From positions 1,251,444-1,315,443 of the forward strand of contig NZ_FVZC01000009.1 in NCBI RefSeq assembly GCF_900166585.1: DNA of 64,000 bases, given 5' to 3'. Shown piece after piece: positions 7,494 to 24,471 of the stretch. Both the position numbers and the translations under genes were made by a program. How positions within the stretch are numbered: position 1 is the first letter of the stretch; the number at the start of each line of letters is the position of its first letter. Under the pieces are notes generated by a model. It was not told the origin of the DNA, made no database searches, and saw nothing but the letters and a program-made list of their open reading frames with translations. This DNA comes from Mesobacillus jeotgali (GTDB lineage Bacteria > Bacillota > Bacilli > Bacillales > Cytobacillaceae).

Positions 7494-7522
7494 TTGATTT
7501 TTCAGAAATTTCAATCTAAAAT
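7494..7522 (+). promoter_or_regulatory. Predicted sigma-A promoter of the acyl-CoA catabolic cluster
   Basis: TTGATT at 7494-7499 and TAAAAT at 7517-7522 are separated by exactly 17 bases. Transcription would start near 7529, directly before the TetR-type palindrome. Confidence 0.7.
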
Positions 7523-7530
7523 TAAAATTA

Positions 7531-7552
7531 ACATACCAACCGGTAGGTATGT
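7531..7552. promoter_or_regulatory. TetR-type operator 1
   Basis: The 20-base core CATACCAACCGGTAGGTATG is an inverted repeat with 18 of 20 positions symmetric, and the flanking A/T extends it to 22 bases. It sits at the predicted start of transcription, the classic place for repression. A sibling site is at 12057-12078. The regulator gene is not in this window. Confidence 0.8.
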
Positions 7553-7619
7553 AAAACAGGTGTCCGCATATATATTAATAGCTAAGAAAATTATAAAAAT
7601 AAGATAGGGAGTGAAATGC

Positions 7620-8795
7620 ATGCATTTACGTTTAACAGAAGAACAAAAAATGGTGCAGAAGACAATCCGACGATTCGTTGAAAAAGAATTGATACCACTT
7701 GAAAATGATGTATTGCGAAATGAACGAGAAGGACGGCCAAGCCTCCCGCCCGGTAAACTAAAAGAACTGCAATTAAAAGCAAAGGAAGCTGGCTTCTGGG
7801 GAATCAATACTCCTGAACAATATGGCGGCGCGGATCTTGGCCAAATGATGATGGCGATTGTCTTGATGGAAGTTTCCAAGACTTTTGTCCCTTTCCAATT
7901 CGGTGGTTCTGCAGATAATATCCTTTACTACGGAAATGAAGAACAGAAGCAGAAATATTTAATCCCAACCATCGACGGAGAGAAAAAATCATGCTTTGCG
8001 ATGACAGAGCCAGGAGCTGGATCTGATACACGGAACATAAAAATGACCGCTGTCAAGGACGGAAATGAGTGGATTCTCAATGGTGAAAAGACATTTATAA
8101 CAGGCGGGAATGAAGCAGACTTCGTTATGGTTATTGCCATTACAGATAAAGAAAAACATCGTGCCACCGGCCGTGATGGTGTAACCTGCTTTATTGTTGA
8201 CCGCGATATGGGCTGGAAGTCAGAGTATATACATACGATGGGCGAGTGGGGTCCGGCCGGCCTGGTATTTGATAATGTCCGCGTTCCTGAAGAGAACATT
8301 CTTGGCGAAGTCGATGGCGGTTACAAATTGGGACTTGAATGGATCGGATTTGCCAGATGGGTTGTTGGAGCAAGGGCAATTGGAGCCGCTGAGCGCCTGC
8401 TGCAAATGGCGATTGATTATTCTAAAGAGCGCATCACTTTTGGCAAGCCGATTGCAGAAAGACAAGCCATCCAATGGATGATTGCAGACTCAGCGGTGGA
8501 GATTGAAGCGGCAAGATGGCTTGTATTGAATGCCGCGTATACTCTGGATGCTGGCGAAGATAACAGGCACATGGCATCGATGGCAAAATTGTATGGCTCT
8601 AACATGGGGAATCGTGTAGTGGACCGGGTCATGCAAATCCACGGCGGAATGGGCTATACCAGGGAATTGCCGATTGAACGATGGTATCGGGAAGCCAGGC
8701 TTTGGAGGATTTACGACGGGACGGATGAAATTCAGCGCATGATTATTGCAAGAGATCTTTTAAAAGGACATGTCAAAATCGGCCAGTTTGTATAA
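7620..8795 (+). CDS. Acyl-CoA dehydrogenase (YDGT variant)
   Basis: A 391-residue flavoprotein dehydrogenase with IPEQYGG-like NTPEQYGGAD, the FAMTEPGAGSD strand, NGEKTFITG and IHGGMGYTRELPIERWYREAR. At the position where many family members have the catalytic Glu (YEGT) this one has Asp: RIYDGTDEIQ, about residue 366. Such Asp forms occur in FadE- and ACAD10/11-like branches. I start at ATG 7620, with AGGGAGTGA well placed; GTG 7611 overlaps that site. It is the first gene of the regulated cluster, behind a promoter and TetR operator, and is followed by a cre site and a short-chain dehydrogenase. Confidence 0.92.
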   Translation: MHLRLTEEQKMVQKTIRRFVEKELIPLENDVLRNEREGRPSLPPGKLKELQLKAKEAGFWGINTPEQYGGADLGQMMMAIVLMEVSKTFVPFQFGGSADNILYYGNEEQKQKYLIPTIDGEKKSCFAMTEPGAGSDTRNIKMTAVKDGNEWILNGEKTFITGGNEADFVMVIAITDKEKHRATGRDGVTCFIVDRDMGWKSEYIHTMGEWGPAGLVFDNVRVPEENILGEVDGGYKLGLEWIGFARWVVGARAIGAAERLLQMAIDYSKERITFGKPIAERQAIQWMIADSAVEIEAARWLVLNAAYTLDAGEDNRHMASMAKLYGSNMGNRVVDRVMQIHGGMGYTRELPIERWYREARLWRIYDGTDEIQRMIIARDLLKGHVKIGQFV

Positions 8796-8799
8796 GTAT

Positions 8800-8813
8800 T
8801 GTAAGCGTTAACA
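8800..8813. promoter_or_regulatory. cre site (CcpA binding)
   Basis: TGTAAGCGTTAACA fits the Bacillus cre consensus TGWAANCGNTNWCA at every specified position. It lies between the first acyl-CoA dehydrogenase stop and the SDR start, where bound CcpA could block elongation or a local promoter in the presence of glucose. Confidence 0.75.
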
Positions 8814-8835
8814 GTTTACTAGAAAGGGAGGAATC

Positions 8836-9600
8836 ATGATGGGTAGATTTGATGGCCGAGTGGCTTTCGTGACAGGAGGCAGCCGGGGAATCGGTAAAGG
8901 AATTGTCCAGCTTTTTGCGGAAGAAGGAGCAAAGGTGGCATTTATCGATTTAAATGAAGAGGCTTTGGCAGAAACAACAAATGAGCTGAAAGAAAAAGGA
9001 TATGAAGTATATTCCAAGGTAGCGAATGTTACCGACGCGGAGCAAGTTGAACAGGCATTTAAAGAGGTGAATGACACTTTCGGCTCTGTGGATATTTTAG
9101 TGAATAATGCTGGCGTCATTCGCGACAATCTTCTTTTTAAAATGACCGACTCTGACTGGCAAACAGTCATGGATGTCCATCTTAAGGGTTCATTCAATGC
9201 ATCCAGGGCCGCACAAAAGTATATGGTGGAAAAGAAATATGGACGTATTATTAACATTTCTTCTACATCAGCCTTAGGAAACAGAGGACAGGCGAACTAT
9301 GCAGCAGCCAAAGCAGGATTACAGGGTTTCACAAAGACACTTGCGATTGAACTTGGACGTTATGGGATTACAGCGAATTCAGTAGCACCAGGGTTCATTG
9401 AAACCGAAATGACAAAGGAAACGGCCGCTCGAATCGGCATTGCTTTTGATGATCTGATTAAGCACAGTGTGGCAAGCATCCCTGTCGGAAGAAGCGGAAA
9501 GCCTGAGGATATTGCCAATGCAGTCGCTTTCTTTGCCGATGAAAAATCGTCCTTTGTAAACGGACAAGTGATTTACGTTGCGGGCGGACCTAAAAATTAA
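8836..9600 (+). CDS. Short-chain dehydrogenase (FabG-like, 3-hydroxyacyl-CoA dehydrogenase candidate)
   Basis: A 254-residue classical SDR with TGGSRGIGKG (cofactor loop), NNAGV, and the catalytic Ser142, Tyr155 and Lys159 in the SSTSALGNRGQANYAAAK region. The sequence resembles FabG, but its place directly before a MaoC-type hydratase pair and after an acyl-CoA dehydrogenase makes a 3-hydroxyacyl-CoA oxidation step more likely than fatty acid synthesis. The start is ATG 8836 (or 8839) behind AAAGGGAGG. Its TAA overlaps a possible ATG of the next gene, so translation is coupled. Confidence 0.9.
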   Translation: MMGRFDGRVAFVTGGSRGIGKGIVQLFAEEGAKVAFIDLNEEALAETTNELKEKGYEVYSKVANVTDAEQVEQAFKEVNDTFGSVDILVNNAGVIRDNLLFKMTDSDWQTVMDVHLKGSFNASRAAQKYMVEKKYGRIINISSTSALGNRGQANYAAAKAGLQGFTKTLAIELGRYGITANSVAPGFIETEMTKETAARIGIAFDDLIKHSVASIPVGRSGKPEDIANAVAFFADEKSSFVNGQVIYVAGGPKN

Positions 9601-9617
9601 TGAGAGGTGAGCAGCCA

Positions 9618-10067
9618 GTGTTTCAGGAGCATATTGGCAAGCAATCGAATAAGGTGAAAAACATTGTAGAGCGCGGTGCTGTCAAAAAATTTGCCGAAGC
9701 CATCGGTGATTTGCATCCTATTTTCGTTGACGAGGAAACGGGCAAAAAATCCAGATACAAAAGAAATATTGCTCCTCCGACTTTCCCAAGGGTTTTTGAC
9801 TATGGGACAATCGACGGATTGAACCTCCCTAATAAGGGCTTGATCCATGGTGAACAAACCTACCATTATGAGCGCCCGTTACTAGTAGGTGAAGAAATTA
9901 CATGCTATTCGGTGGTTAAAAACTATTTTGAGAAGAAAGGCACTCAGGGAGAAATGGGATTCCTTGTATTAGAAAGCTTCGGTGAAGACGAAATGGGAAA
10001 TGTGGTTTTTGCCTCCACCCAAACCGTCATTATTACAGAAGCGGTAAGGAAGGTGTTGATCGGATGA
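9618..10067 (+). CDS. MaoC-like hydratase, N-terminal-type subunit
   Basis: A 149-residue hot-dog protein of the FAS1_DH/MaoC N-terminal type (HIGKQSNKVKNIVERGAVKKFAEAIGD opening, then APPTFPRVF and HGEQTYHYERPLLVGE). I choose the GTG at 9618, because AGAGGTGA lies seven bases upstream and family members begin at this residue; the ATG at 9600 overlaps the previous stop and would put the ribosome site inside the gene. It lacks an obvious Asp/His catalytic pair, as expected of the structural half of a two-subunit (R)-specific enoyl-CoA hydratase. The catalytic partner follows with a 4-base overlap. Confidence 0.86.
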   Translation: MFQEHIGKQSNKVKNIVERGAVKKFAEAIGDLHPIFVDEETGKKSRYKRNIAPPTFPRVFDYGTIDGLNLPNKGLIHGEQTYHYERPLLVGEEITCYSVVKNYFEKKGTQGEMGFLVLESFGEDEMGNVVFASTQTVIITEAVRKVLIG

Positions 10068-10471
10068 GTAAATTGGCAGAATTGAAAATTGGCGACTCAC
10101 TTAAGGAAATCCAGCTGGACCCGGTCGATCGAATCACTTTAATTAAATACGCAGGTGCGTCTGGAGATTACAACCCAATCCACACTATTGATGATGAGGC
10201 GAAAAAAGCCGGCCTGCCGGGGATTATCGCGCACGGAATGTGGACAATGGGCAACCTGGCGAAACTGTTTACTGATTTTTACAATGAAGGGTTCATTCAG
10301 GACTATAGGATCCGCTTCAAAGGGATGGTATTCCTTAATGATGTTGTCACCCTAAAGGCTGAACTTGCAGAGGAAAATGACAATCTCCTTCGCTTTCGTG
10401 TTCAAGCTGTCAATCAGAATGGCAATGAGGTCATTAAGGGAGATGTGCTATACCACCGGTATGCTTCTTAA
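10064..10471 (+). CDS. MaoC family hydratase, catalytic subunit
   Basis: A 135-residue MaoC-domain protein. The hydratase motif is complete: YAGASGDYNPIH, which supplies the catalytic Asp and His, followed by GIIAHGMWTMG. The ATG overlaps the stop of the preceding subunit (ATGA), so the two are made together and likely form a heterodimeric enoyl-CoA hydratase similar in plan to the HadAB type. It would hydrate the 2-enoyl-CoA made by the acyl-CoA dehydrogenases, giving the substrate for the SDR. The stop codon is followed at once by a 185-bp repeat element. Confidence 0.9.
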   Translation: MSKLAELKIGDSLKEIQLDPVDRITLIKYAGASGDYNPIHTIDDEAKKAGLPGIIAHGMWTMGNLAKLFTDFYNEGFIQDYRIRFKGMVFLNDVVTLKAELAEENDNLLRFRVQAVNQNGNEVIKGDVLYHRYAS

Positions 10472-10475
10472 TAAA

Positions 10476-10660
10476 AGGCTGTTTTCGTAAAGATTGTTGT
10501 TAAAATCCTAAAGCCGATTTTAACGTGATTATAGCCATTTTGTAGGTCGGTACTAAGTTGGCAAGCTCTTTTCTCTTCAGAAGCGTTCATTTTGTGCAGA
10601 AACTTAGGCAATTCCATCCTATTTTGTCATCAATAGCAACAAAGTTTGAGAAAAGAGCCT
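10476..10660. mobile_element. 185-bp MITE-like element, copy A
   Basis: The ends are inverted repeats: AGGCTGTTTTCGTAAA on the left, and on the right the complement of AGGCTCTTTTCTCAAA. The element has no coding capacity and is flanked on both sides by AATAAA. A second copy of identical length and the same orientation lies at 25469-25653, with roughly three-quarters identity by eye. This copy begins four bases after the MaoC stop. Confidence 0.8.
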
Positions 10661-10670
10661 AATAAAAATA

Positions 10671-10696
10671 AAACCCGGCAAAAAATTGCTGGGTTT
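10671..10696 (+). terminator. Intrinsic terminator
   Basis: AAACCCGGCAA (10671-10681) pairs with TTGCTGGGTTT (10686-10696) and is followed by ATTACTAT. With the MITE hairpin before it, this likely ends the first part of the cluster. From here to 10906 I see no convincing gene or site. Confidence 0.7.
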
Positions 10697-10906
10697 ATTA
10701 CTATAGGTTCATCCTTATTTTGAAAAATAAATAGATTTTAAGGAAAATAGGTTTATTTTTAAGGAATGAATAACGAAGGTTCAGTAATATATCGTCTGGT
10801 TCAAGAAAAAAGACGGATTTTCCCGACTATCTGCCCTTCTACGCAGCTAGTCACACTTGCCTTGTTAAAAACTAGAGATTTCCCAGGAACGAGGTGTCCA
10901 ACAAAG

Positions 10907-12049
10907 GTGAATTTTGATTTTGATGAAGATTTATTGGCGTTAAAGAAGAATGTCCGTGATTTTATCCAGACGGAAGTCGAGCCTGTTGCGATGCAAATCG
11001 AAGAAGAAGATGAAATTCCTCGCAAAATCATAGAACTTTCCAAAGAAATGGGTTTGTTTGGACTCAGCATACCGGAGGAATACGGCGGACTAGGAATTGG
11101 CATGGTTGAAAAATGTGCTCTTTATGAGGAAATCGGCCAGACACACAATGGCTACACAACTTTAATAGGTGCCCACACTGGGATCGGCACGGTTGGCATA
11201 GTGGAGATGGGCAACGAGCAGCAAAAACAGAAATATTTGCCTGCTATGGCAGCTGGTGAAAAGATCGGTGCATTCGCTCTTACTGAGCCTGATGCCGGGT
11301 CTAATGCAGCGAACCTCAAGACGACCGCCGTTAAAAGAGGAGATAAATACGTACTGAATGGTTTAAAGCATTATATCACTAATGCTTTAGACGCAAGTGT
11401 TTTCACAGTAATGGCGGTGACAGCAGAAAAAGGGGCAAAAGGGATCACTTCCTTCATTGTTGAAAAGGATTTCCCCGGGTTCAAGCTTGGCAAAGTCGAA
11501 AAGAAGATGGGGCTGCGAGGCTCGCACTCAGCTGAATTGGTTTTCGAAGATTGCGAGGTCCCTGTTGAGAATGTTCTTGGAGCAGAGGGACAGGGTTATG
11601 TGAATGCTTTGAAAATCCTGGCTAACGGAAGGGCAGGACTTGCGTCTCGCAATCTTGGATCCTGCCAGAAGCTTCTCGACATGTCTGTTGCCTATGCAAA
11701 AGAGAGAATCCAATTCGGGGAACCAATCATAAGGCACCAGGCGGTTAGCCATATGCTCGCTGAGATGGCAGTGGAAATCGAAGCGCTCCGCTCATTTACA
11801 TACCGGGTTGCCTGGATGGTTGATTCGGGCAAAAAGGTGATCAAGGAAGCTGCCATGTTAAAGCTTTATGGCTCAGAAGTATACAATCGGGTCGCGGATA
11901 AAGCGGTACAAATCCACGGAGGGCTTGGTTATATATCGGATTATCCAGTAGAAAGATTTTTCAGGGATGCACGGATAACAAGAATCTATGAAGGAACGTC
12001 TGAAATCCAGAAAAATATCATAGCCGCACAGCTTGAAAAGGAATATTAG
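10907..12049 (+). CDS. Acyl-CoA dehydrogenase (short-chain type)
   Basis: A 380-residue acyl-CoA dehydrogenase with the usual [29 protein letters not shown] and [16 protein letters not shown] blocks and the catalytic Glu in [10 protein letters not shown] (about residue 362). The frame is open back to an ATG at 10766, but that would add 47 residues unlike any family member and has no ribosome site. GTG 10907, with GAGGTG about 11 bases upstream, gives the standard start [11 protein letters not shown] therefore prefer GTG, possibly an ancestral ATG that has drifted. It precedes TetR operator 2. Confidence 0.85.
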
Positions 12050-12056
12050 GATATCG

Positions 12057-12078
12057 GCATACCTACTAGTCAGTATGC
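12057..12078. promoter_or_regulatory. TetR-type operator 2
   Basis: CATACCTACTAGTCAGTATG, extended by G and C to 22 bases, is an inverted repeat with the same half-site CATAC and the same central AC-N2-GT as operator 1. It lies 27 bases before the ACAD10/11-type gene, in the short gap after the preceding stop. Confidence 0.75.
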
Positions 12079-12104
12079 AAAATGAAAAGAAAGAGGTGGC
12101 AAGG

Positions 12105-13310
12105 ATGGATTTTAATCACTCTGAAAAGGTCAAAAAATACCAGGCCAGGCTGTCAGCGTTCATGGATGAATTCATTTATCCAAATGAACAGGTGTATAAA
12201 GAGCAAATCGACAAAAACGCCCCCTTTTCAAAAGTACCTCCAATCATGGAAGAACTAAAGGAAAAGGCAAAAGAAAAAGGTCTTTGGAATCTATTTTTGC
12301 CTGAAAGCGAATATGGTGAAGGTCTTACCAATTTGGAATATGCTCCTCTCTGTGAAATCATGGGCAGATCAAGTATCGCCCCAGAGGTGTTCAACTGTGC
12401 TGCGCCTGATACAGGCAATATGGAAGTACTTGTACGTTACGGAACAGAAGCACAGAAGGAACAATGGCTAAAACCGCTCCTGAGCGGAGAAATTCGGTCA
12501 TGCTTTTCGATGACAGAACCAGATGTTGCTTCATCTGATGCGACCAACATCCAGGCAAGCATCATCCGTGATGGTGATGAGTATGTCATTAACGGAAAGA
12601 AATGGTGGTCTTCGGGGGCTGGGGATCCACGCTGCAAGATCGCGATTGTGATGGGGAAAAATGACCCTGATGCCCAGAAGCATGAGCAGCAATCTATGAT
12701 TCTCGTTCCGCTGGATACACCAGGAGTCACCATCAAAAGGATCCTGCCAGTCTTTGGTTATGATCATGCTCCCCATGGCCATGCCGAAATAGAATACAAG
12801 AATGTAAGAGTACCTGCTTCCAATATGCTTTGGGACAAGGGCAAAGGATTTGCGATTGCCCAGGGACGCCTGGGTCCTGGCAGGATCCATCATTGCATGA
12901 GAACGATCGGTGCTGCGGAACGGGCGCTTGAAGAATTGTCCAAAAGGGTTCTTGGAAGAGAAGCCTTCGGTAAAAAGCTTGCGGAACAAGGTGTCATCCA
13001 GGAATGGATCGCGGAAGCAAGAATAGATATTGAACAGGCCAGACTTTTGACTTTGAAGGCAGCCTTCATGATGGATACTGTCGGAAACAAAGAAGCGAAA
13101 GCAGAAATTGCAATGATTAAGGTCGTGGCACCAAATATGGCGTTAAAAATTATTGACAGGGCGATTCAGGCTTTTGGCGCAGCTGGTGTAAGCGATGATT
13201 TCACACTTGCAGCCTCATGGGCAAATATCCGGACCCTTCGTTTAGCTGACGGACCAGATGAGGTACACAAACGAGCAATTGCACGCTATGAACTTAAAAA
13301 ATATATGTAA
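12105..13310 (+). CDS. Acyl-CoA dehydrogenase, ACAD10/11-like
   Basis: A 401-residue protein like the dehydrogenase half of eukaryotic ACAD10/ACAD11. Marks are [27 protein letters not shown], the [13 protein letters not shown] segment and the C-terminal [19 protein letters not shown], with Asp (about residue 382) where other acyl-CoA dehydrogenases have the base Glu. I use ATG 12105 behind AGAGGTGGC. Relatives such as Pseudomonas LvaC and mammalian ACAD11 act on 4-phosphoacyl-CoA made by a kinase, and such a kinase is encoded at 15307. It leads a run of tightly packed genes to 24471. Confidence 0.9.
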
Positions 13311-13322
13311 GGAGGAGCATTA

Positions 13323-14096
13323 ATGCATGTATCAGATTTATTTTCACTCAGAGGAAAAGTAGCGATTGTTACAGGTGGCGGCCGGGGACTTGGGGAACAA
13401 ATCGCTGTAGGTTTTGCTGAAGCTGGAGCCAATGTCGTCGTTTGTTCGAGACGAGTGGAAGCCTGTGAGGAAGTAAGCCAGAAACTGAAAGAATCAGGGG
13501 TAGAATCTTTAGCGTTAAGGTGTGACATCACCAATCAAGAAGACGTGAAAAACGTAGTTCAAAAAACCTTAGAGAAATTCGGGCGGATTGACATCCTTGT
13601 CAATAACAGCGGGGCATCCTGGGGGGCGCCTGCGGAAGAGATGCCTCTAGAAGCATGGCAAAAAGTCATGAATGTCAATGTTACTGGCACCTTCTTAATG
13701 TCCCAGGCTGCAGGGAAAGTCATGCTTGAGCAAGGGGCAGGCAAAATCATTAATATTGCGTCGGTTGCTGGCCTGAAAGGATCCAATCCAAAAGTGATGG
13801 ATGCGATTGGCTATAACGCCAGCAAGGGGGCTGTCATTACATTTACAAAGGATTTGGCGGCTAAATGGGGGCCGCGCGGCATTTATGTGAATGCCATTGC
13901 CCCTGGATTCTTCCCAACGAAGATGTCGAAAGGACTGCTGGAAAAAGGCGGTCAGTCAATACTGGAAGGAACGCCATTAAGGAAATTCGGTTCTGATACC
14001 GACCTTAAGGGCGTCGCTGTATTCCTGGCGGCACCGGCATCTGACTATATTACTGGTGACGTAATTGTTGTAGATGGAGGAACACATGTGCTTTAA
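13323..14096 (+). CDS. Short-chain dehydrogenase/reductase
   Basis: A 257-residue classical SDR with TGGGRGLGEQ, NNSGAS and the catalytic Ser147, Tyr164 and Lys168. It starts at ATG 13323 behind AAGGAGGAG, 12 bases after the ACAD10/11-type gene, and stops 15 bases before the thiolase. The context points to oxidation of a hydroxyacyl-CoA or of an alcohol/ketone substituent on the pathway substrate. In the levulinate (lva) pathway an SDR also accompanies the kinase and dehydrogenase; whether this one is orthologous I cannot tell. Confidence 0.9.
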   Translation: MHVSDLFSLRGKVAIVTGGGRGLGEQIAVGFAEAGANVVVCSRRVEACEEVSQKLKESGVESLALRCDITNQEDVKNVVQKTLEKFGRIDILVNNSGASWGAPAEEMPLEAWQKVMNVNVTGTFLMSQAAGKVMLEQGAGKIINIASVAGLKGSNPKVMDAIGYNASKGAVITFTKDLAAKWGPRGIYVNAIAPGFFPTKMSKGLLEKGGQSILEGTPLRKFGSDTDLKGVAVFLAAPASDYITGDVIVVDGGTHVL

Positions 14097-14111
14097 AAGG
14101 GGGATGCAGCT

Positions 14112-15281
14112 TTGAAGAGAGATGCCGTAATCGTATCTGCAGTCAGGACAGCAATTGGCAGGCAGGGTGGAGCGCTTGCATCTGTCCCTGCACATGTATT
14201 TGGTGCGGAAGTAATAAAAGAAGCGATCAGGAGGGCAAACGTCCAGCCAGAAATGATTGAAGATGTCATTATGGGTAATGTCATCAGCGGAGGCGGGAAC
14301 ATTGCCCGTCTGACAGCTCTTCAAACCGGCTTTTCACAAGAATTGCCTGGCTTGACCATCGATCGGCAGTGCGGGTCTGGAATCAACGCTGTCAATCTCG
14401 CTGCCCAGGCAATCCGTTCAGGTGCTGGTGACGTATATATTGCTGGCGGAATCGAGAGTATGAGCAGGGCACCTTATTTAATGGATAAACCTGAAAAACC
14501 ATACAGCCCAGTACCGCCAAGCTTTAGGAAGTCCCAACTCTCGCCCAAGGAAATCGGCGATCCGCCAATGGGCATCACTGCGGAAAATCTGGTGGAAAAA
14601 TATTCGATCACAAGAGAAGAGCAGGACGAATTTGCGCTGTCCAGTCAGCAAAAAATGTCTGCTGCAATGGCTGGGGGACGTTTCGACGACCAAATCGTTC
14701 CCATCACGATCCCAGTCCGAAAAGGAGATTCCTTCATTTTTAAAAAGGATGAACACCCGAGGCCGCAAACAACATTAGAAGCGCTAACCAAGCTTCCGCC
14801 AGCCTTTTTACAGGGAGGGTCGGTTACTGCCGGCAGCAGCTCGGGATTGAATGATGGTGCAGCTGCACTAGTTATCATGTCCAGAGAGAAAGCCCAGGAA
14901 TTAGGTTTGGCACCATTGGCAATCATTAGGGAATCCTCTGTAGCTGGGGTCGATCCGAATATCATGGGCATCGGACCGGTTCCTGCGGTTAGAAAAGTTC
15001 TTCAGAAGTCCGGCCTGAAAATGGAGGACATGGACATTATTGAAATAAACGAGGCTTTCGCTGCCCAGGTCATTGCCTGCAATCGGGAGCTGAACATGGA
15101 TATGGATAAAGTGAATGTAAATGGCGGGGCGATAGCCCATGGTCATCCCCTTGGTGCTACAGGAGCAATCCTCGTCACTAAGGCTGTATATGAGCTTGAA
15201 AGAAGAGGAGGACGTTATGCCCTTATTACTGCCTGTATCGGCGGCGGACAGGGTATTGCCACAATTATCGAACGGGAATGA
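14112..15281 (+). CDS. Thiolase (acetyl-CoA acyltransferase)
   Basis: A 389-residue thiolase with all three active-site elements: nucleophile Cys87 in DRQCGSG, His345 in [10 protein letters not shown] and Cys375 in TACIGGGQG. It starts at TTG 14112, after an AAAAGGGGG ribosome site; there is no better ATG nearby. In this operon it would cleave the 3-ketoacyl-CoA made by the SDR step, releasing acetyl- or propionyl-CoA. Biosynthetic acetoacetyl-CoA thiolase is possible by sequence but not by context. Confidence 0.93.
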
Positions 15282-15306
15282 TTTTTCCAAAAGGGGGAAT
15301 GCACTT

Positions 15307-16365: not shown

Positions 16366-16370
16366 AGAAC

Positions 16371-18089
16371 ATGATGAAAATTCACCTTTTGCTGAAAAAG
16401 GAAGACATCGATAAGAAAAAGATGGCTGACAACAAAATTGCTGTCGTTTTCGACGTACTCCTGGCTACTTCTACAATTACATCAGCACTGGAATTCGGAG
16501 CTAAAGAAGTGATTCCTGTCCTGGATGGAAAAGCGGCACAACAAGAAGCGGCTGGCATGGAAAATGACAGTTATGTCCTTGTTGGAGAATATCAGGGGAA
16601 AACAATCGATGGGTTTCTCTCACCAAACCCTCTGGAATTAAGGAAAAAAATCGAGGGTAAGTCCGTCATTCTGTCTACCACGAACGGAACTGTTGCACTA
16701 AAGAATTCTGCAGATGCGAATGCTGTCTATGCAGCATCCCTGATGAACTGCCAGGCAGTTGCTAATCATATTTTAAAAGATTATCGAGGGGAAACCATTG
16801 TAGTCGTCTGCTCTGGCTCATCCAATGAGTTCAATGTAGAGGATTTTCACGGGGCCGGATGCTTCATTGACTGCCTGATCAAGCAATGTGACATGGAGTT
16901 TTTCCTGACAGATTCTGCTTATGCTGCACACAGTTTCTACCATGCCCACACTCAAAACAGTGTTGATATATTAAAAGCTTCGAGAGTCGGCCGGATGCTT
17001 AGTAAACATAGTTTTAGCAGGGAAATTGAATTTGTGTCACAGGAAAATATATTTTCACAAGTCCCTATGCTGATTGATAAAAAAAGAATTATTGCACTTG
17101 CGGATGATAACGTTTACAAAAAAGGAGATGACTGGATGTCATTAAAACCCGAAGTTAAAGCATTACTTGAAGCCTTAGCAAAAAATCCTGTGCCGCCATT
17201 GGAACAACTGCCGCTTACCGAAGCAAGGAAAGGTTTTGAACTATCTGCAAAACAAATGAGTAAAGCCGAGAAACTCGCAAAAACTCAGAATCGCAGAATC
17301 CCTGGATACAAGGATGAAATCAATATAAGGATTTATGCACCAGAGGATGCAAAAGGGTCAAAGCTCCCAGCTATCGTCTATTACCATGGAGGCGGCTGGG
17401 TGATCGGCAATATCGATACTCATGATGCCCTTTGCCATACATTGTCCTGCGAAGCAAACTGTATAGTCGTCTCGGTGGATTACAGTCTCGCTCCAGAAAG
17501 CAAATTTCCAGTTGCCGTTGAAGATTCCTATTTAGCTGCCAAATGGGTGTTTGAAAACGCTGCTGATTTGAACATTGATGAAGACTTTATCGCTGTGGCG
17601 GGAGATAGTGCAGGGGGAAACCTTGCAGCAGCAGTTTGTTACCTAGCTGTCCAAAGAAAGACAACTTCGATCGCATACCAGATGTTGTTTTACCCGTCTA
17701 CTGGCTTTGAATATACGCCATCATATGAAAAATTCGGGGAAGGCTACTATTTGACAAAGTCTACAATGACCTGGTTCCGCGAACAATACCTGAACTCAAT
17801 TGAAGATACACAAAACCCCCTGGCCGCGCCTATGCTAATACCTGATGAGATAACGCCTCTTTTGCCGCCAGCATATATCCTGACAGCGGAGCTTGACCCA
17901 TTATGTGATGGCGGAGAGAGTTTTGCCACGAAACTTAAAAATGCGGGTGTAGAGACACAATATGTTTGCGCACCCGGCATGCTTCACGGTTTTCTCGGTA
18001 TGACTGAACACTTGCCAGATGGAAAACAAGCTATCAAAGATGCTGCTGCAGCCTTCAAGAAGAGAAGTTCGCTTAAACCGGTTGAATAA
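16371..18089 (+). CDS. ComB-like phosphatase domain fused in frame to an HSL-type alpha/beta hydrolase
   Basis: One open frame of 572 codons encodes two proteins in tandem. Residues 1 to about 250 resemble ComB, 2-phosphosulfolactate phosphatase (FDVLLATSTI, GEYQGKTIDGF, STTNGTVAL, CSGSSNEFNVEDFHGAG). The rest is a full hormone-sensitive-lipase-type esterase (HGGGWVIG oxyanion motif, GDSAGG with Ser413, LDPLCDGG and MLHGFLG completing the triad). Both parts have normal domain length. A textbook ribosome site and ATG at 17136 allow the esterase to be made alone. The join hangs on a run of six A: seven would put a stop there. I start at ATG 16371; TTG 16362 has no spaced ribosome site. Confidence 0.8.
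   Translation: MMKIHLLLKKEDIDKKKMADNKIAVVFDVLLATSTITSALEFGAKEVIPVLDGKAAQQEAAGMENDSYVLVGEYQGKTIDGFLSPNPLELRKKIEGKSVILSTTNGTVALKNSADANAVYAASLMNCQAVANHILKDYRGETIVVVCSGSSNEFNVEDFHGAGCFIDCLIKQCDMEFFLTDSAYAAHSFYHAHTQNSVDILKASRVGRMLSKHSFSREIEFVSQENIFSQVPMLIDKKRIIALADDNVYKKGDDWMSLKPEVKALLEALAKNPVPPLEQLPLTEARKGFELSAKQMSKAEKLAKTQNRRIPGYKDEINIRIYAPEDAKGSKLPAIVYYHGGGWVIGNIDTHDALCHTLSCEANCIVVSVDYSLAPESKFPVAVEDSYLAAKWVFENAADLNIDEDFIAVAGDSAGGNLAAAVCYLAVQRKTTSIAYQMLFYPSTGFEYTPSYEKFGEGYYLTKSTMTWFREQYLNSIEDTQNPLAAPMLIPDEITPLLPPAYILTAELDPLCDGGESFATKLKNAGVETQYVCAPGMLHGFLGMTEHLPDGKQAIKDAAAAFKKRSSLKPVE
17121..17138 (+). promoter_or_regulatory. Internal ribosome site and start for the esterase half (17136-18089)
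   Basis: AAAGGAGATGA lies just upstream of ATG 17136, which is in frame with the ComB part. The resulting 317-residue product begins MSLKPEVKALLEAL, the usual N-terminus of stand-alone HSL esterases. The sequence supports an independently translated esterase, whatever the status of the fusion. Confidence 0.8.
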
Positions 18090-18111
18090 TAATTTTCAGG
18101 GGGAATATCCA

Positions 18112-19788
18112 ATGCCTAATCTTCATTATGATCATTGGCCGAAAATCTCTAAATCACTCACCTTGCCGGAAACATCACTCTATGAAAATTTGAAAGTCAG
18201 TGCTGAGCGGTATCCGGACCAGAACGCAATCTATTACTATGGAAAAGCGCTATCCTATAGGGAGCTTGATGAAGATGTAAATATGCTTGCAGGTTTCCTT
18301 CAGCAAAAACTTGGCGTTGCCAAAGGGGATAGAGTTCTTTTATTCATGCAAAATTCTCCCCAGTTTGTCATTGGTTTTTACGCAATATCCAGGGCTGATG
18401 CTATCGTTGTGCCCATCAATCCAATGCTTACTGCAGACGAACTTAGTTTTTATATCAAGGATTGCAGTATCACCTCAGCACTGGTTGGCCAGGAGCTCTA
18501 TGATAAAGTAGAGCCGCTCATTGGTACTACACCTTTAAAGAATGTCGTCATTGCAGCTTATTCAGATTACAAAGGGGAAAATTTAAGAGGCATTGTTCCT
18601 CCAGAGGTCGAAGCAGCCAAAGTAGTATACGGGCAACCGGGACATTTTCACTGGAGCGAAGCCATTTCCGCAAAATATGAAGCAGGTGCCCATACGACAA
18701 AAGCTGATGACCTGGTTGTGCTTCCTTACACATCAGGGACAACAGGGCTGCCAAAAGGGTGTATGCACACTAACCGGACAGTTCAGGCAAATACAATCGG
18801 TGCCTATCACTGGTCAAGTTCCACTACTAGTGCAGTGCATCTGACTACACTGCCATTATTCCATGTAACTGGTATGGTACACAGCATGCATATGCCAATC
18901 TTTTCCGGCAGTACGATGGTCTTGATGACAAGATGGAATCGAGAGGCAGCGGTCGAGTTGATTAAATCGCAGGGCTGTACTCATTGGGTAGCAATTGCCA
19001 CGATGATCGTCGATTTCCTGGCAAATCCAAAGCTAAACCCGGAAGATATCTCTACACTAACCTCTATTTCTGGCGGTGGCGCCGCACTTCCAGAAGCGGT
19101 TGGAGAAAAATTGTACAATTTGACAGGTCTTAGGTTTGTAGAAGGCTATGGCCTTTCCGAAACAATTGCCCAAACACATTTCAATCCGCCAGACCGTCCA
19201 AAAATGCAATGTCTTGGCATTCCGTCCTTTGATGTCGATGCGAGGGTGATTGAACCGAGCACTGGAAAGGAACTGGGTGCTGGTGAAGCAGGCGAAATTA
19301 TCGTGAATGGGCCTCAAGTCATGGTCGGCTATTACAACAGGGAGGATGAAAACAGAAGTTCCTTTATTGAATTAGAAGGCAAAAGGTTCTTCAGAACAGG
19401 TGATATTGGAAGATATGATGAGGAAGGGTACTACTTTATGGTCGACCGCGTGAAAAGGATGATAAATGCATCAGGATACAAGGTTTGGCCTACGGAGGTA
19501 GAATCTTATCTTTATAAGCATCCGGCAATCCAGCAGGCAGTAGTTGTTGGCATACCGGATCCTAGAAGAGGCGAATCGGTCAAGGCATTTGTAATTTTAA
19601 ACGATGGGTTTGAGGGAAGTATCAGTGAAGAAGAAATAATCGAATGGTCCAAACAGCATATGGCGGCCTACAAATATCCTCGCGAGGTTGAATTCAGGAA
19701 GCAATTCCCAATGACAAGCAGCGGAAAAATCCTCTGGCGGAAGCTTCAGGAGGAAGAGAGGGAGAAAGCTGAAAAACAAGTAAGGTAA
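18112..19788 (+). CDS. Acyl-CoA ligase (AMP-forming)
   Basis: A 558-residue adenylate-forming enzyme, probably a fatty acid or related carboxylate-CoA ligase. It has the P-loop YTSGTTGLPKG, the GYGLSETIAQTHFNP motif, the YYFMVDRVKRMINASGYKVWPTEVE hinge region in the C-terminal domain, and the catalytic Lys in SSGKILWRKL. I place the start at ATG 18112 behind CAGGGGG; the open frame extends 93 bases into the preceding gene without a ribosome site. It should activate the acid brought in by the Liv-type importer encoded next, committing it to the dehydrogenases and thiolase upstream. Confidence 0.92.
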   Translation: MPNLHYDHWPKISKSLTLPETSLYENLKVSAERYPDQNAIYYYGKALSYRELDEDVNMLAGFLQQKLGVAKGDRVLLFMQNSPQFVIGFYAISRADAIVVPINPMLTADELSFYIKDCSITSALVGQELYDKVEPLIGTTPLKNVVIAAYSDYKGENLRGIVPPEVEAAKVVYGQPGHFHWSEAISAKYEAGAHTTKADDLVVLPYTSGTTGLPKGCMHTNRTVQANTIGAYHWSSSTTSAVHLTTLPLFHVTGMVHSMHMPIFSGSTMVLMTRWNREAAVELIKSQGCTHWVAIATMIVDFLANPKLNPEDISTLTSISGGGAALPEAVGEKLYNLTGLRFVEGYGLSETIAQTHFNPPDRPKMQCLGIPSFDVDARVIEPSTGKELGAGEAGEIIVNGPQVMVGYYNREDENRSSFIELEGKRFFRTGDIGRYDEEGYYFMVDRVKRMINASGYKVWPTEVESYLYKHPAIQQAVVVGIPDPRRGESVKAFVILNDGFEGSISEEEIIEWSKQHMAAYKYPREVEFRKQFPMTSSGKILWRKLQEEEREKAEKQVR

Positions 19789-19830
19789 AAACTCCGTCAC
19801 TGCAGCTATCAAATTTTAAGGAGGATCTTG

Positions 19831-20694
19831 ATGGAGATATTGGTTCAGCAGCTGTTCAATGGTCTGACCATCGGCAGCGTATATGCCTTAGTAGCTCTTG
19901 GACTCACTCTTGTATACGGTATCCTTCATATCCCGAATTTCGCCCATGGCGCGTTATACATGATGGGTGGATATATAACCTTGATGATGATGGTCCAATA
20001 TGGTCTTCATTACTGGCTGGCGATTCTCATTTCAGTCTTCGCTGTCGGATTAATTGGCGTATTGATGGAACGATTGGTCTTCCATCCATTAAGGCATGCA
20101 CCGCCGATTCATGACAAAATAGCAGCGATTGGAATTCTGTTATTTTTGGAAGCATTCGCTCAATTTATTTGGGGTGCTGATTATCAGATGATGACAACAC
20201 CATATGACCAGGTTGTACAGTTATTCGGTTTGACCTTCACGATGCAAAGATTGCTGATTATCATCTCTGCCATAGGTGTAATGGTATTGCTTTACCTGTT
20301 CCTGAAAAAAACGTTTACTGGTGCTACAATCATTGCTATGTCACAGGATCGTGATGGTGCCAACCTGGTAGGTATCAATACAAACCGGGTGGCGATGCTG
20401 ACATTCCTTATTTCCGGAGGGCTTGCTGCCATTGCCAGTTCACTGGCATCACCTATTAATCTAGTTTTTCCCGGAATGGGCCAGCTGGTAATCCTGAAAG
20501 CTTTTGTCATCATCATCCTGGGTGGAATGGGCAGTATTCCCGGTGCGATCATCGGGGGTTATATTCTAGGATTCAGTGAAAGCCTGGGGGCAACGTATAT
20601 CTCTAATGATTACAAAGACATCATTGCGTTCATCCTGCTTGTCATCATTCTAACAGTAAAACCAACCGGCCTGTTTGCTAAGGGGGGACATTGA
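19831..20694 (+). CDS. livH: Branched-chain amino acid-type ABC transporter permease LivH
   Basis: A 287-residue membrane protein with about eight hydrophobic segments. The opening GLTIGSVYALVALGLTLVYGI and the FAHGALYMMGGY turn are LivH hallmarks, and GGMGSIPGAIIGGYILG near the C-terminus is the coupling region. ATG 19831 follows AAGGAGGATC; TTG 19828 is less likely. It pairs with LivM, whose start overlaps this stop. Liv-type importers in catabolic clusters often carry carboxylates, aromatic acids or amides rather than amino acids, which fits the acyl-CoA ligase next door. Confidence 0.92.
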   Translation: MEILVQQLFNGLTIGSVYALVALGLTLVYGILHIPNFAHGALYMMGGYITLMMMVQYGLHYWLAILISVFAVGLIGVLMERLVFHPLRHAPPIHDKIAAIGILLFLEAFAQFIWGADYQMMTTPYDQVVQLFGLTFTMQRLLIIISAIGVMVLLYLFLKKTFTGATIIAMSQDRDGANLVGINTNRVAMLTFLISGGLAAIASSLASPINLVFPGMGQLVILKAFVIIILGGMGSIPGAIIGGYILGFSESLGATYISNDYKDIIAFILLVIILTVKPTGLFAKGGH

Positions 20695-21719
20695 TGGCGA
20701 AAGTGGTCAATAAACGCAATATCATACTTGCACTCTTGTTATTTGCGATTGTATTTCCATTAATTACGCAAAACGATTATTTCATCCATGTAATGACTCT
20801 TTCATTCATCTGGATGATTGGGGTGTATGGGCTTAACCTATTGGCCGGCTATACGGGATATCTATCACTGGCGCATGCTGGATTTTTCGCGATAGGCGCT
20901 TATTCTTTAGGCTTACTAACGGTAAAAGCTCAGATGAATTTTTGGCTTGCTTTTGTGCTTTCACTAGTCATTACAAGCATTCTTGGGTTTTTAGTCGGCC
21001 TGATAGCCTTACGGACAAAAGAGCATTTCTTTGCCATTTACACCCTGTGTGTCGGGTATATCATTTACCTTATCATCGATAAATGGGACAGTCTAACAGA
21101 AGGCGTCCGCGGTTTGATTGGAATTCCAGCACCGGCGAATATCGGGCCTGTTTCTTTTGAGACACCTCTATCACAATATTATCTCGTTCTGGCGATTCTG
21201 CTTTTGGTCATTCTGGTTGTTTATCGGATTGTGCACTCTTTGACAGGAAGGACATACATGGCAATTCGCAACAGCGAGGACCTCGCACAGACGATTGGAA
21301 TCTCAACAATGAAAAATAAACTGGAAGTATTCGTGCTGTCGACTTTTTTTGCCGGCCTGTCAGGAGCGCTTTATGCCTCATTCATCCGCTTTATCGGACC
21401 TGATATTGGGAACATCGTTATCACGTTTGATTTGCTGACATATCTGCTGATTGGAGGAATAGGCACTCTGTCTGGACCCATCGTGGGCACTGTATTGGTA
21501 GTATGGATCTCACAGCAGCTCCAGTTTCTTCAGGATTACCGGATGCTCATTTTCGGTCCTGTTTTAACACTCCTGGTTATTTTTTACCCTCGTGGGATCG
21601 CCGGGGCAGTCGGCGGCTGGAGCTTAAAACGTGCTGAGAAAAAACTGCAGAATTCCAAGGTGCGAGCAGGTTCCTCGCAAAGCCCTATCACTGCAGACAA
21701 TCAGGTTAAGGAGGGTTGA
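20694..21719 (+). CDS. livM: Branched-chain amino acid-type ABC transporter permease LivM
   Basis: A 341-residue permease with about nine hydrophobic segments, the LivM signature GYTGYLSLAHAGFFAIGAY, and the GGIGTLSGPIVGTVLV coupling segment. ATG 20694 overlaps the LivH stop (TGATG) and has AAGGGGGG upstream. The hydrophilic C-terminal tail ends just before livG. It forms the second half of the transmembrane channel. Confidence 0.92.
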   Translation: MAKVVNKRNIILALLLFAIVFPLITQNDYFIHVMTLSFIWMIGVYGLNLLAGYTGYLSLAHAGFFAIGAYSLGLLTVKAQMNFWLAFVLSLVITSILGFLVGLIALRTKEHFFAIYTLCVGYIIYLIIDKWDSLTEGVRGLIGIPAPANIGPVSFETPLSQYYLVLAILLLVILVVYRIVHSLTGRTYMAIRNSEDLAQTIGISTMKNKLEVFVLSTFFAGLSGALYASFIRFIGPDIGNIVITFDLLTYLLIGGIGTLSGPIVGTVLVVWISQQLQFLQDYRMLIFGPVLTLLVIFYPRGIAGAVGGWSLKRAEKKLQNSKVRAGSSQSPITADNQVKEG

Positions 21720-21721
21720 GA

Positions 21722-22486
21722 ATGTTTCTGGAAACCAAGAAGTTAACAAAGAAATTCGGCGGGCTGACGGCCGTTAATAGTGTTGATTTTTCTATAGAAA
21801 AAGGGAAAATCAATGCGATTATCGGTCCGAACGGAGCAGGCAAGTCGACTTTTTTCAATCTTATAAGCGGCTTCCACCCTCCGACATCAGGGAATATTAT
21901 TTTTAAAGGCCAGGACATTACAAACCTGCCTTCAAATAAAATAGCGGAACTGGGAATAGCTCGTACCTTTCAAACGACAAACCTTTTTGAACAATCCACT
22001 GTCCTTGATAACGTGTTCGTCGGTCACAGACTAAGGACAAAATCCAATTTAATGGATGCGGTTTTTAGGTCAAAAAGACTAAAAAGGGATGAAGAAAAAT
22101 GCCTTGAAAAAGCGATAGAGGTCATAGAATTCGCAGGATTGCAAAAAGTGTCAGACAAACTAGTCGGCAGTCTTACTCAGGAAGAAAAGAAACGGACCGC
22201 GTTTGCACTGGCATTGGCAACAGAGCCTGAAATTGTGTTCCTTGATGAACCTGCAGCAGGAGTGAACCCTGACGAAACGGAGGGATTGGCTGAACTGATA
22301 AGAAAAATGGCCAATAAAGGGATTACTGTCTGTTTGATCGAGCACAAAATGCAAATGATCATGAAGCTGGCAGATAAAATCATGGTCCTCAATTACGGAG
22401 AGAAGATTGCTGAGGGAAATGCAGACGAAATACGGAACAATCCTATTGTCATCAAGGCTTACCTGGGAGGGAGCGCCAGTGCTTGA
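21722..22486 (+). CDS. livG: ABC transporter ATP-binding protein LivG
   Basis: A 254-residue ATPase with Walker A GPNGAGKST, the Q-loop region ARTFQTTNLFEQ, Walker B IVFLDEPAAGVNP and the switch His in LIEHKM. The ABC signature is unusual: SLTQEEKKRTAFALAL takes the place of the common LSGGQ or LSYGQ form. ATG 21722 is used, with AAGGAGGG upstream; TTG 21716 sits too close to that site. The gene overlaps livF by eight bases. Apart from the signature, the protein looks intact. Confidence 0.9.
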   Translation: MFLETKKLTKKFGGLTAVNSVDFSIEKGKINAIIGPNGAGKSTFFNLISGFHPPTSGNIIFKGQDITNLPSNKIAELGIARTFQTTNLFEQSTVLDNVFVGHRLRTKSNLMDAVFRSKRLKRDEEKCLEKAIEVIEFAGLQKVSDKLVGSLTQEEKKRTAFALALATEPEIVFLDEPAAGVNPDETEGLAELIRKMANKGITVCLIEHKMQMIMKLADKIMVLNYGEKIAEGNADEIRNNPIVIKAYLGGSASA

Positions 22487-23186
22487 ACTGAGAGATGTTA
22501 CAGTTAAATATGGCAGCTATGCAGCTGTCCAAAATGTCAGCCTTGAAGTTGCTCCTGGAGAAGTCGTTGTCCTTCTAGGAGCGAACGGTGCCGGAAAAAG
22601 CACGATTTTCAAGACAATCAGCGGATTAAATAAATGCTCTTTAGGAGATATCCTCTTTGAGGGAGAACTACTAAATATACGAAGTCCTGATAAAATCGTG
22701 CAATCGGGCATTGTCCAATGCGCTGAGGGGCGAAAGCTGTTTCCATCCATGACAGTATATGAGAATTTGAGAATGGGCGCTTATGTTCACCGGAGGCACA
22801 AAAAAGGGATAAAAGATTCAATGGAACACGTGTTTGAACTGTTTCCGATTCTAAAAGAGAAACAGCACGATATGGCAGGTTCACTCAGCGGCGGGCAGCA
22901 GCAAATGCTGGCTATTGGGAGGGCATTGATGGCAAAGCCAAAACTTATGCTTCTTGATGAGCCCTCAATCGGCCTTGCACCGTTGATTGTCGAGCAAATG
23001 TTTGAAGTGATCCAGACCATCAATCGAGAGGGAACCACCATCCTGCTTGCCGAACAAAATGCGAATGCTGCCCTGAAAATTGCAAATAAAGGCTATGTAT
23101 TCGAAAACGGTTCTGTAGTACTGGAAGGAACATCCGATGAATTATTTGCAAATGAAGACATAAAAAAGGCATATATCGGTGCCTAA
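22479..23186 (+). CDS. livF: ABC transporter ATP-binding protein LivF
   Basis: A 235-residue ATPase with Walker A GANGAGKST, a standard signature LSGGQQQMLAIGRAL, Walker B LMLLDEPSIGLAP and the LLAEQNA switch region. It begins at GTG 22479, behind GGGAGGGAG and inside the last codons of livG, so the two nucleotide-binding subunits are translationally coupled. Upstream starts in the same frame lie inside livG and lack a ribosome site. Confidence 0.92.
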   Translation: MLELRDVTVKYGSYAAVQNVSLEVAPGEVVVLLGANGAGKSTIFKTISGLNKCSLGDILFEGELLNIRSPDKIVQSGIVQCAEGRKLFPSMTVYENLRMGAYVHRRHKKGIKDSMEHVFELFPILKEKQHDMAGSLSGGQQQMLAIGRALMAKPKLMLLDEPSIGLAPLIVEQMFEVIQTINREGTTILLAEQNANAALKIANKGYVFENGSVVLEGTSDELFANEDIKKAYIGA

Positions 23187-23271
23187 GATTACTTTCTGCC
23201 TTTAGGGAGGTGGTTGACAAGCGGTATGCATAATTAATTCTGAATATTAAAAATTTTGAGGGGGAAACCAA

Positions 23272-24471
23272 ATGAAGAAGTCCAAATTATTGCTGGTCTT
23301 AAGTGTAATGTTTGCCTTGATTTTCACTCTAGCCGCTTGCAACAGTTCAGAAAAAACAGGTACAGGAGGTAACGATTCAAAGGCAGCGCCAGGTGAAGGA
23401 ACAATTAATATTGGATATACAGGTCCATTGAGCGGACCCGCTGCATTTTATGGCGAAAGGACATTGAACGGTGTCCAGATGGCAGCTGAAGAACTTAATG
23501 CAGCAGGTGGAATTGAAGTAAACGGCAAGAAGTATAAATTTAATATTGTCTCACTGGACGATAAGTACTTGCCTAATGAAGCAGGAGCGAATGCAAAAAG
23601 ACTCATGCAGGAAAACAAAACACCTATTATCTTTACCCCTCACAGCGGTGGTGTGGCAGCTATGCAAGTATTTAACCAGCAGGAAAAATTCATTATTGGA
23701 GCCTATACTAGTGAACCTAAGGTAACAGAAGGAGGAAATAAGTTAACGGTTAGAATCCCTCCCCGTTATGACGGCTATCTGGAGCCATTCACTAATTATA
23801 CTATGGAGAAGTTCGGCAAGAAAATCGCCTTCCTGCCGACAGCTTCACAGTATGGAAAGGACTGGGCCGAAAAGCTTCAGCCTCACTGGGAAAAAGCCGG
23901 CGGGAAAGTGGTTTTTAATTCGTCAATTGACTTTGCGAAGGACACTGATTTCTTTACGATCATTACCAATGCTTTAAAGGAGAAGCCTGATGTACTATTC
24001 ATTGGCGGACCTTCAGAGCCAACAGCAAAAGTAGCCAAACAGGCTAGGGAGTTAGGCTTTAAAGGTGGATTTATCGTGATGGACCAGGCCAAATTCGACG
24101 AGATGAAAAAAGTTACAGGCAGCTATGACATTCTAAACGGTGCAATTGGTGTCATGCCGCTCGTCAACTCAGATAGTCCCGGCATACCAGAATTCGTTAA
24201 AAACTATAAAGCAAAATACAATGAGGATCCAGGTTCTGAAGCTGGCTTGAATTACATTGCGATGCATGTTTTTGCGGAAGCCATAAAAGCCGCTGGTTCT
24301 GTTGATGATCCAGAAAAAATAATGGCCCATATGCAGGACGGGCTGGATAACCTGCCGGAGGACAAAAAAGTGTATGTAATCCCAAAAATCGACCCTAATG
24401 GCGGATTTGAAGGTGAGCTGATTGTGGCAGCGATAGAGGATGGAAAAGTCGTGCCAATAAAGGCTGATTAA
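23272..24471 (+). CDS. Liv-type ABC transporter substrate-binding lipoprotein
   Basis: A 399-residue type I periplasmic-binding-fold lipoprotein. The N-terminus has two Lys, a hydrophobic stretch and the lipobox LAAC, so Cys23 is the likely lipid anchor on the outer face of the membrane. Residues about 40-395 match the LivJ/amide-binding family (NIGYTGPLSGPAAFYGE, then LNAAGGIEVNGKKY). It completes the importer encoded by livHMGF, 85 bases downstream of livF. That gap contains only a ribosome site, GAGGGGG, and a poorly spaced TTGACA. The ligand cannot be predicted; the cluster suggests a carboxylic acid. Confidence 0.92.
   Translation: MKKSKLLLVLSVMFALIFTLAACNSSEKTGTGGNDSKAAPGEGTINIGYTGPLSGPAAFYGERTLNGVQMAAEELNAAGGIEVNGKKYKFNIVSLDDKYLPNEAGANAKRLMQENKTPIIFTPHSGGVAAMQVFNQQEKFIIGAYTSEPKVTEGGNKLTVRIPPRYDGYLEPFTNYTMEKFGKKIAFLPTASQYGKDWAEKLQPHWEKAGGKVVFNSSIDFAKDTDFFTIITNALKEKPDVLFIGGPSEPTAKVAKQARELGFKGGFIVMDQAKFDEMKKVTGSYDILNGAIGVMPLVNSDSPGIPEFVKNYKAKYNEDPGSEAGLNYIAMHVFAEAIKAAGSVDDPEKIMAHMQDGLDNLPEDKKVYVIPKIDPNGGFEGELIVAAIEDGKVVPIKAD

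Follow-up and report, generated by a model that had tools for sequence, protein, structure and literature searches.

Gene content and layout of the locus

The DNA analysed here (the window) is a stretch of 64,000 nucleotides from the 4.6 Mb genome of Mesobacillus jeotgali (contig C9, positions 1251444–1315443). It contains a plus-strand block of catabolic genes in which a kinase gene (aph) and a gene for a protein resembling acyl-coenzyme A (CoA) dehydrogenases (acd11), both akin to mammalian ACAD10 and ACAD11, are accompanied by a gene for a ComB-family protein (comB). We describe this block, the TetR-type regulon to which it appears to belong, a lactonase gene in that regulon, and the pathway that these genes may encode.

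A first-pass annotation had delimited a unit at 7494–24471 and ascribed to it a complete beta-oxidation set, consisting of a ligase, three dehydrogenases, a MaoC pair, two short-chain dehydrogenases (SDRs) and a thiolase. ORF, Pfam and NCBIfam readings recovered every listed gene as an intact open reading frame (ORF) on the plus strand, with the beta-oxidation set complete, and the gene block is thereby confirmed. Overlooked at that time was the ORF at 16362–18089, in which a ComB-family domain (PF04029, residues 12–237) is fused to a hormone-sensitive-lipase-type hydrolase (PF07859, residues 338–545). The features of the block are:

7532–7551, no strand: operator-like palindrome before acdA, an exact match to CATACCNACNNGTNGGTATG
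7620–8795, plus: acdA, acyl-CoA dehydrogenase with Asp at the usual catalytic Glu position (IYDGTDEIQ); searches used 7626–8795
8836–9600, plus: sdr1, FabG-like SDR
9600–10067, plus: maoC1, FAS1_DH_region hydratase subunit
10064–10471, plus: maoC2, MaoC hydratase subunit
10766–12049, plus: acdB, acyl-CoA dehydrogenase with Glu at the catalytic position (IYEGTSEIQ); the start is probably at about 10908
12058–12077, no strand: operator-like palindrome before acd11, with one mismatch
12105–13310, plus: acd11, predicted ACAD10/11/LvaC-type phosphate-eliminating dehydrogenase-like enzyme (R255, H263-C264-M265-R266, D382)
13323–14096, plus: sdr2, SDR above the cut-off of NF006070 (PRK08213)
14112–15281, plus: thl, acetyl-CoA acyltransferase
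15307–16365, plus: aph, predicted ACAD10/11-LvaA-type kinase (D213, N218, R170; R77 beside E78)
16362–17132, plus: comB, kinase-linked ComB-family domain with Leu for the DxxR Arg; the predicted fold matches 1vr0
17136–18089, plus: hsl, hormone-sensitive-lipase-type esterase fused to comB, retaining its own AAAAGGAG and ATG
18112–19788, plus: lig, adenosine monophosphate (AMP)-forming acyl-CoA ligase above the cut-off of NF006181 (PRK08314); searches used 18109–19788
19828–20694, plus: livH-like permease
20691–21719, plus: livM-like permease
21716–22486, plus: livG-like ATPase
22407–23186, plus: livF-like ATPase, start uncertain
23272–24471, plus: sbp, Peripla_BP_6 binding protein with a weak LivJ match (79 bits)

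Between the end of maoC2 at 10471 and acdB lies a gene-free gap of about 290 to 440 bp, depending on the acdB start. Because of this gap and the palindromes at 7532–7551 and 12058–12077, the block probably comprises more than one transcription unit. Scans for promoters and terminators gave results at chance level only and were not used. By eye, a hairpin-like stretch can be seen near 10674 within the gap (10472–10900), and acdB is absent from the corresponding place in two Cytobacillus-like loci (L038, L039).

Eight congener loci (L032, L033, L034, L036, L037, L050, L081, L107) hold all the genes from acdA through sbp in the same order, so this order is not due to chance. Two records titled Chryseobacterium and Pseudomonas (L037, L040) hold Mesobacillus- or Bacillus-like loci and look mislabelled. 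For wider comparison we used a set of 53 loci classed as Bacillales (1.07 Mb) and 25 others (0.48 Mb); sdr2 lies within 10 kb of the kinase gene in 35 of the 53. Directly after sbp, at 24661–25461, there is a Fumble-type (type II) pantothenate kinase gene, whose position is kept in congeners and whose product may raise the CoA supply.

The kinase, its ACAD11-type partner and the ComB-family protein

The kinase and the dehydrogenase-like protein were placed by match scores and diagnostic residues, and by neither measure did they fall outside the ACAD10/11 and Lva groups to which they had first been assigned. The 12105 product matched ACAD11 chains and PDB entry 4hr3 with 465–474 bits, compared to 151 bits for the next acyl-CoA dehydrogenase in the PDB. 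In mouse ACAD11, the residues R626, H634 and R637, on one helix, and the catalytic D753 are reported to be required for the conversion of 4-phosphoacyl-CoA to 2-enoyl-CoA (PMC12440821). The alignment showed that the essential residues are kept in the 12105 product as R255, H263, C264, M265, R266 and D382, and an HCMR-type motif is absent from the other three dehydrogenases nearby (3471, acdA and acdB). Among acd11-like ORFs from Bacillales and other loci, R-x7-HCMR was present in all 44 with at least 65% identity; of 11 that are more distant, nine have it. The catalytic Asp was likewise found in all 44 close relatives (40 by pattern, four as variants), while the same pattern matched none of the 11 distant ORFs.

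The PDB matches of the 15307 product were headed by 9o56 (480 bits), followed by the ACAD11 kinase (182–186 bits) and 3dxp (157 bits); the fifth and last match listed scored 35 bits. The catalytic Asp and Asn of the HxD..N motif are retained (D213, N218), as is the Arg of the CoA region (R170, corresponding to R176 in the published numbering), and an HxD..N-type motif occurs in all 78 kinases of the locus set (56 with the tight pattern and 22 as variants). The second CoA-contacting Arg, next to the alpha-C Glu, is R86 in the published numbering. The pair R77-E78 lines up with Arg-Glu residues at what we count as positions 84–85 of ACAD11, so that the numbering disagrees. Orthologs from another bacterium were reported to substitute for the ACAD10 domains in vitro (PMC11342911). 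By its match scores and catalytic residues, the pair is of the ACAD10/11-Lva kind. Its chemistry, that is, phosphorylation followed by phosphate elimination, is well supported by homology, and the kinase is expected to act on 4-hydroxyacyl-CoA; we infer from sequence that each of the pathway reactions occurs in M. jeotgali itself.

Co-occurrence was assessed in 150 genomes of the same order, including that of M. jeotgali. Agreeing genome labels defined this one common set for the counts of acd11 (E ≤ 1e-90), kinase (E ≤ 1e-40), lactonase (E ≤ 1e-80) and ComB (E ≤ 1e-20). The kinase and acd11 were found in the identical 70 genomes, with none discordant, and the two genes lay within 10 kb of each other on one strand in 68 of these (the exceptions are G087 and G042).

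The ComB-family protein follows the pair closely. A ComB match was present in 61 of the 70 kinase-positive genomes and in one of the 80 kinase-negative ones; 36 of the 37 genera with ComB are genera with the kinase, and comB lies within 200 bp of the kinase gene in 51 of the 70 genomes. In 21 of the 53 Bacillales loci the gene immediately before the kinase gene encodes a thioesterase, and in 36 the kinase gene is followed by comB; comB also stands beside the kinase gene in two Rubrobacteraceae loci. We considered the possibility that such linkage is a habit of the ComB family as a whole and rejected it, since among 249 genomes of the phylum 130 had a ComB match and only five had a kinase.

The PF04029 domain and the ComB fold, the latter from a predicted structure, are both present in the window protein. 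Compared with solved 2-phosphosulfolactate phosphatases (1vr0, 2yyv, 2z0j), however, the genomic setting is different, and the arginine of the DxxR motif that all three share is replaced by Leu. The split was complete: in 61 distinct sequences of kinase-linked ComBs (79 loci) this position is Leu in 53, Phe in five and Met in three, whereas in 37 other ComBs it is Arg in 33 and Ser in four. This count leaves out L159 and L079, partial pieces that lack the position, and L157, from which no usable reading was obtained. In the phylum set, the ComBs of 31 of the 130 genomes were read as belonging to the others, and all have Arg; 28 of these genomes are free of the kinase, and the remaining three (G189, G236, G275) are kinase genomes with an unlinked ComB. 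Judging by its conservation, the arginine presumably lines the ComB active site.

An assembly error as the cause of the comB-hsl fusion was rejected, since four genomes share it (G000, G013, G020, G010); the fusion is thus real but lineage-specific. The two genes form one ORF here and in three congeners, and are separate ORFs in other Mesobacillus; the ribosome-binding sequence of hsl, with its ATG, survives in the window.

A probable TetR-type regulon and its putative lactonase

The palindrome CATACCAACCGGTAGGTATG at 7532–7551 has a near copy at 12058–12077; two such sites in the window compare with a mean of 0.04 in shuffled sequences. A looser form gave five sites genome-wide and none in the reversed control. 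Four of the five fall within 22.5 kb of contig C9. Two of these are outside the window (L115): one precedes an SDR gene, and the other separates a TetR gene from a thioesterase gene. The fifth site, on contig C8 (L116), was discarded, as it departs from the consensus and has no pathway genes nearby.

With up to three mismatches, the palindrome (CATACYAACYRGTTRGTATG) was found at 60 sites in 38 of the 53 Bacillales loci and in none of the 25 non-Bacillales loci (0.48 Mb). A site lies 35–49 bp before acd11 in 31 of the 53 and 50–99 bp before acdA in 12; seven sites precede the kinase gene and six have none of the tested genes behind them. In a pattern search of 22 chosen genomes, sites were found in 10 of 12 kinase-positive genomes and in one of 10 kinase-negative ones (G051, where the site is beside a TetR relative). 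The association extends to genes that lie apart: in G117 and G048 an acdA-matching ORF lies away from the kinase cluster and still behind a palindrome, and in G097 an unlinked comB directly follows one. In the latter genome, the unlinked comB is itself followed by an ORF resembling the enoyl-CoA hydratase found upstream of the window (L175:2340–3018). The acdA product combines Asp for the catalytic Glu and the lack of an HCMR motif with a palindrome that is shared even when the gene is unlinked. In three genomes of two genera (L178, L179, L184), an ORF whose product reads like a molybdopterin oxidoreductase follows the palindrome, as an unexplained member of the regulon.

The TetR protein consists of TetR_N and TetR_C_24 domains, with KstR2 fourth-best in its PDB match list, and from the adjacency of gene and site we infer that it contacts the palindrome. 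The block thus appears to be part of a TetR-type regulon that extends beyond the upstream edge of the window by as much as 10 kb. Of the bounds first assigned to the unit, the genes were upheld and the start at 7494 was not, as genes under the same palindrome lie in this upstream region. The latter encodes a ligase (by our reading a second one), SDRs, an enoyl-CoA hydratase, a zinc-type reductase, a phosphotriesterase-family protein and a protein of the metallo-beta-lactamase fold. The SDR gene before the upstream ligase (L115:8101–8691) has 196 codons, which is short for the family, and may be truncated.

The phosphotriesterase-like protein (L115:14269–15279) is a putative lactonase. Over 324 residues it shares 67% identity with its top PDB hit, which belongs to a group of 18 chains with almost the same score; Geobacillus kaustophilus GkaP (3orw, 3tn3) is in this group. 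All six metal-binding residues (H, H, K, H, H, D) fall in identical stretches of the alignment. For GkaP at 75 °C, kcat/Km values of 7.3e4 for gamma-hexyl-gamma-butyrolactone and 9.9e5 for delta-decanolactone are reported (PMC4338136). The lactonase was found in 20 of the 150 genomes, all 20 of which have the kinase (hypergeometric 4.5e-8); counted per genus, all 14 lactonase genera are kinase genera, which make up 42 of the 83 (2e-5). In nine of the 20 genomes the two genes are within 20 kb of each other. Nearly the whole set is contiguous, lactonase included, in three other genera (genomes G132, G040, G117), in the order acd11, sdr2, thiolase, SDR, ligase, tetR, thioesterase, kinase, comB, SDR, hydratase, reductase or none, Liv importer, ligase and lactonase.

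Proposed pathway, alternatives and significance

Taken together, we consider it likely that these genes serve a gamma-lactone/4-hydroxy-acid pathway in which a phosphatase clears stalled 4-phospho intermediates, the substrate and the role of the phosphatase being the conjectural parts. The upstream lactonase, and perhaps the hormone-sensitive-lipase-type esterase as well, would open the lactone, and an AMP-forming ligase would convert the acid to 4-hydroxyacyl-CoA; uptake of the acid would be the task of the Liv-type importer. The APH-type kinase would phosphorylate the 4-hydroxyl, the ACAD11-type enzyme would eliminate the phosphate to give trans-2-enoyl-CoA, and the MaoC pair, SDR and thiolase would complete the cycle, with the KstR2-resembling TetR regulator acting through the CATACYAACYRGTTRGTATG palindrome. 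The ComB-family protein would take the phosphate off 4-phospho intermediates that have stalled; its most likely target is the free 4-phospho acid, which may arise when the 4HBT thioesterase of the regulon cleaves 4-phosphoacyl-CoA. This would make both CoA and hydroxy acid reusable, the acid being recharged by the ligase. The position of the thioesterase gene before the kinase gene and of comB after it suggests such a thioesterase-ComB-ligase loop. The free 4-phospho acid has been measured in cells, and the HAD domain of ACAD10 has been considered a guard against accumulation of phospho intermediates, its phosphatase activity being negligible (PMC11342911).

A more far-reaching interpretation, which we put forward tentatively and would not yet favour, is that the kinase-linked ComBs, having lost the DxxR arginine, form a new subfamily of phosphatases for the hydrolysis of 4-phospho fatty acids or of their CoA esters. 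They would constitute a kinase-phosphatase safety valve that evolved independently of, and parallel to, the HAD domain of human ACAD10, and the regulon would give lactonases of the Geobacillus type the job of opening gamma-lactones.

Several observations weigh against the proposed pathway. Fifty of the 70 kinase-positive genomes have no lactonase at the cut-off used, so lactones are not the sole source of substrate. ComB can be dispensed with, since nine of the 70 give no match to it at the cut-off; among the nine, G071 is just under the cut-off and adjacent to the kinase, and G039 has a fragment beside it. In the Bacillales loci, comB lies within 10 kb of the kinase gene in only 37 of 53, the whole-genome count being higher. 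The canonical substrates of ComB are 2-phospho acids, not 4-phospho acyl chains. Kinship between genomes was allowed for in the co-occurrence tests by the per-genus count only. Finally, GkaP is reported to favour delta-lactones (PMC4338136), and the 5-hydroxy acids formed from these would presumably not need the kinase/acd11 pair.

Some of the same observations point to other explanations. The true substrates might be long hydroxy fatty acids that must pass through rounds of beta-oxidation before their hydroxyl is at position 4, and the lactonase would then be incidental. The many kinase-positive genomes without a lactonase are consistent with this, as are the complete beta-oxidation route and the three dehydrogenases in the set. 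However, every lactonase genome has the kinase, and in several genera the lactonase gene lies within the cluster; we regard this explanation as rather unlikely. About equally doubtful, in our view, is that ComB is no enzyme here at all and slows the kinase allosterically. Such restraint of the kinase is reported for the ACAD10 HAD domain, whose phosphatase activity is negligible (PMC11342911), and the replacement of the DxxR arginine in all 61 distinct kinase-linked sequences fits such a role. That ComB retains its classical 2-phosphosulfolactate role as a passenger of the operon, as the names of the Pfam and NCBIfam models would suggest, is very unlikely given its proximity to the kinase gene in 51 genomes, the presence of the kinase in 36 of the 37 ComB genera, and the complete residue split between kinase-linked and other ComBs.

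Short-chain catabolism of levulinate or 4-hydroxyvalerate by a Gram-positive counterpart of the lva operon, with sdr2 as the 4-oxo reductase, is improbable. A kinase, an LvaC-type enzyme, an SDR and a ligase are all present, as in the gene list lvaEDABC (PMC9628823), and sdr2 is close to acd11 and the kinase gene in many genera. Yet the ligase passes the cut-off of NF006181, a long-chain fatty-acid ligase model, and GkaP, the relative of the linked lactonase, is reported to prefer hydrophobic side chains (PMC4338136); an LvaR-like regulator was not noticed among the ORFs read, with no search aimed at one. Of the substrates proposed in the first-pass annotation, lactone-derived acids thus gained support from the lactonase gene in the regulon, while short-chain levulinate is not specially supported. 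Least probable of all is a role of the unit in degrading N-acyl-homoserine lactones. The literature consulted discusses quorum quenching by phosphotriesterase-like lactonases, but most kinase-positive genomes have no lactonase, and neither an acylase nor a homoserine gene came to notice in the ORFs and Pfam results, with no dedicated search made.

The pathway proposed here, from gamma-lactones or 4-hydroxy acids through 4-phospho intermediates, has counterparts in other organisms. It resembles the lva operon of Pseudomonas putida (LvaA, LvaC) in bringing together a kinase, a phosphate-eliminating enzyme, an SDR and a CoA ligase, and differs from it in the full beta-oxidation set, the TetR-type regulator with its palindrome, the Liv-type importer, ComB and the lactonase; the gene list lvaEDABC in the cited source names neither of the latter two (PMC9628823). 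Mammalian ACAD10 and ACAD11, assigned to the breakdown of 4-hydroxy acids by two papers in 2024 and 2025, share the same kinase and acyl-CoA dehydrogenase families and the same essential residues (PMC11342911, PMC12440821), and ACAD10 too has a phosphatase-family (HAD) domain beside its kinase (PMC11342911). In M. jeotgali, by contrast, the proteins are separate, the phosphatase-family partner is ComB, with another fold, and the genes are part of a bacterial regulon with a lactonase and an importer. GkaP was studied as an isolated promiscuous enzyme (PMC4338136), while its relative here lies in a regulon with a predicted 4-hydroxyacyl-CoA kinase pair. Searches of the open-licence PMC literature listed no paper on the kinase/acd11 pair in a Bacillus operon, on a link of ComB to this pair, or on a lactonase of this kind in such a gene setting.

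The palindrome and its regulator offer an inducible marker for finding the true substrate, and the link to the lactonase suggests a natural role for a group of enzymes studied mainly for engineered or promiscuous activities. ComB, a member of a phosphatase family that accompanies the kinase in Bacillales, could act as the safety valve of the pathway and provides a directly testable answer to how the phosphorylated intermediate is kept from accumulating.

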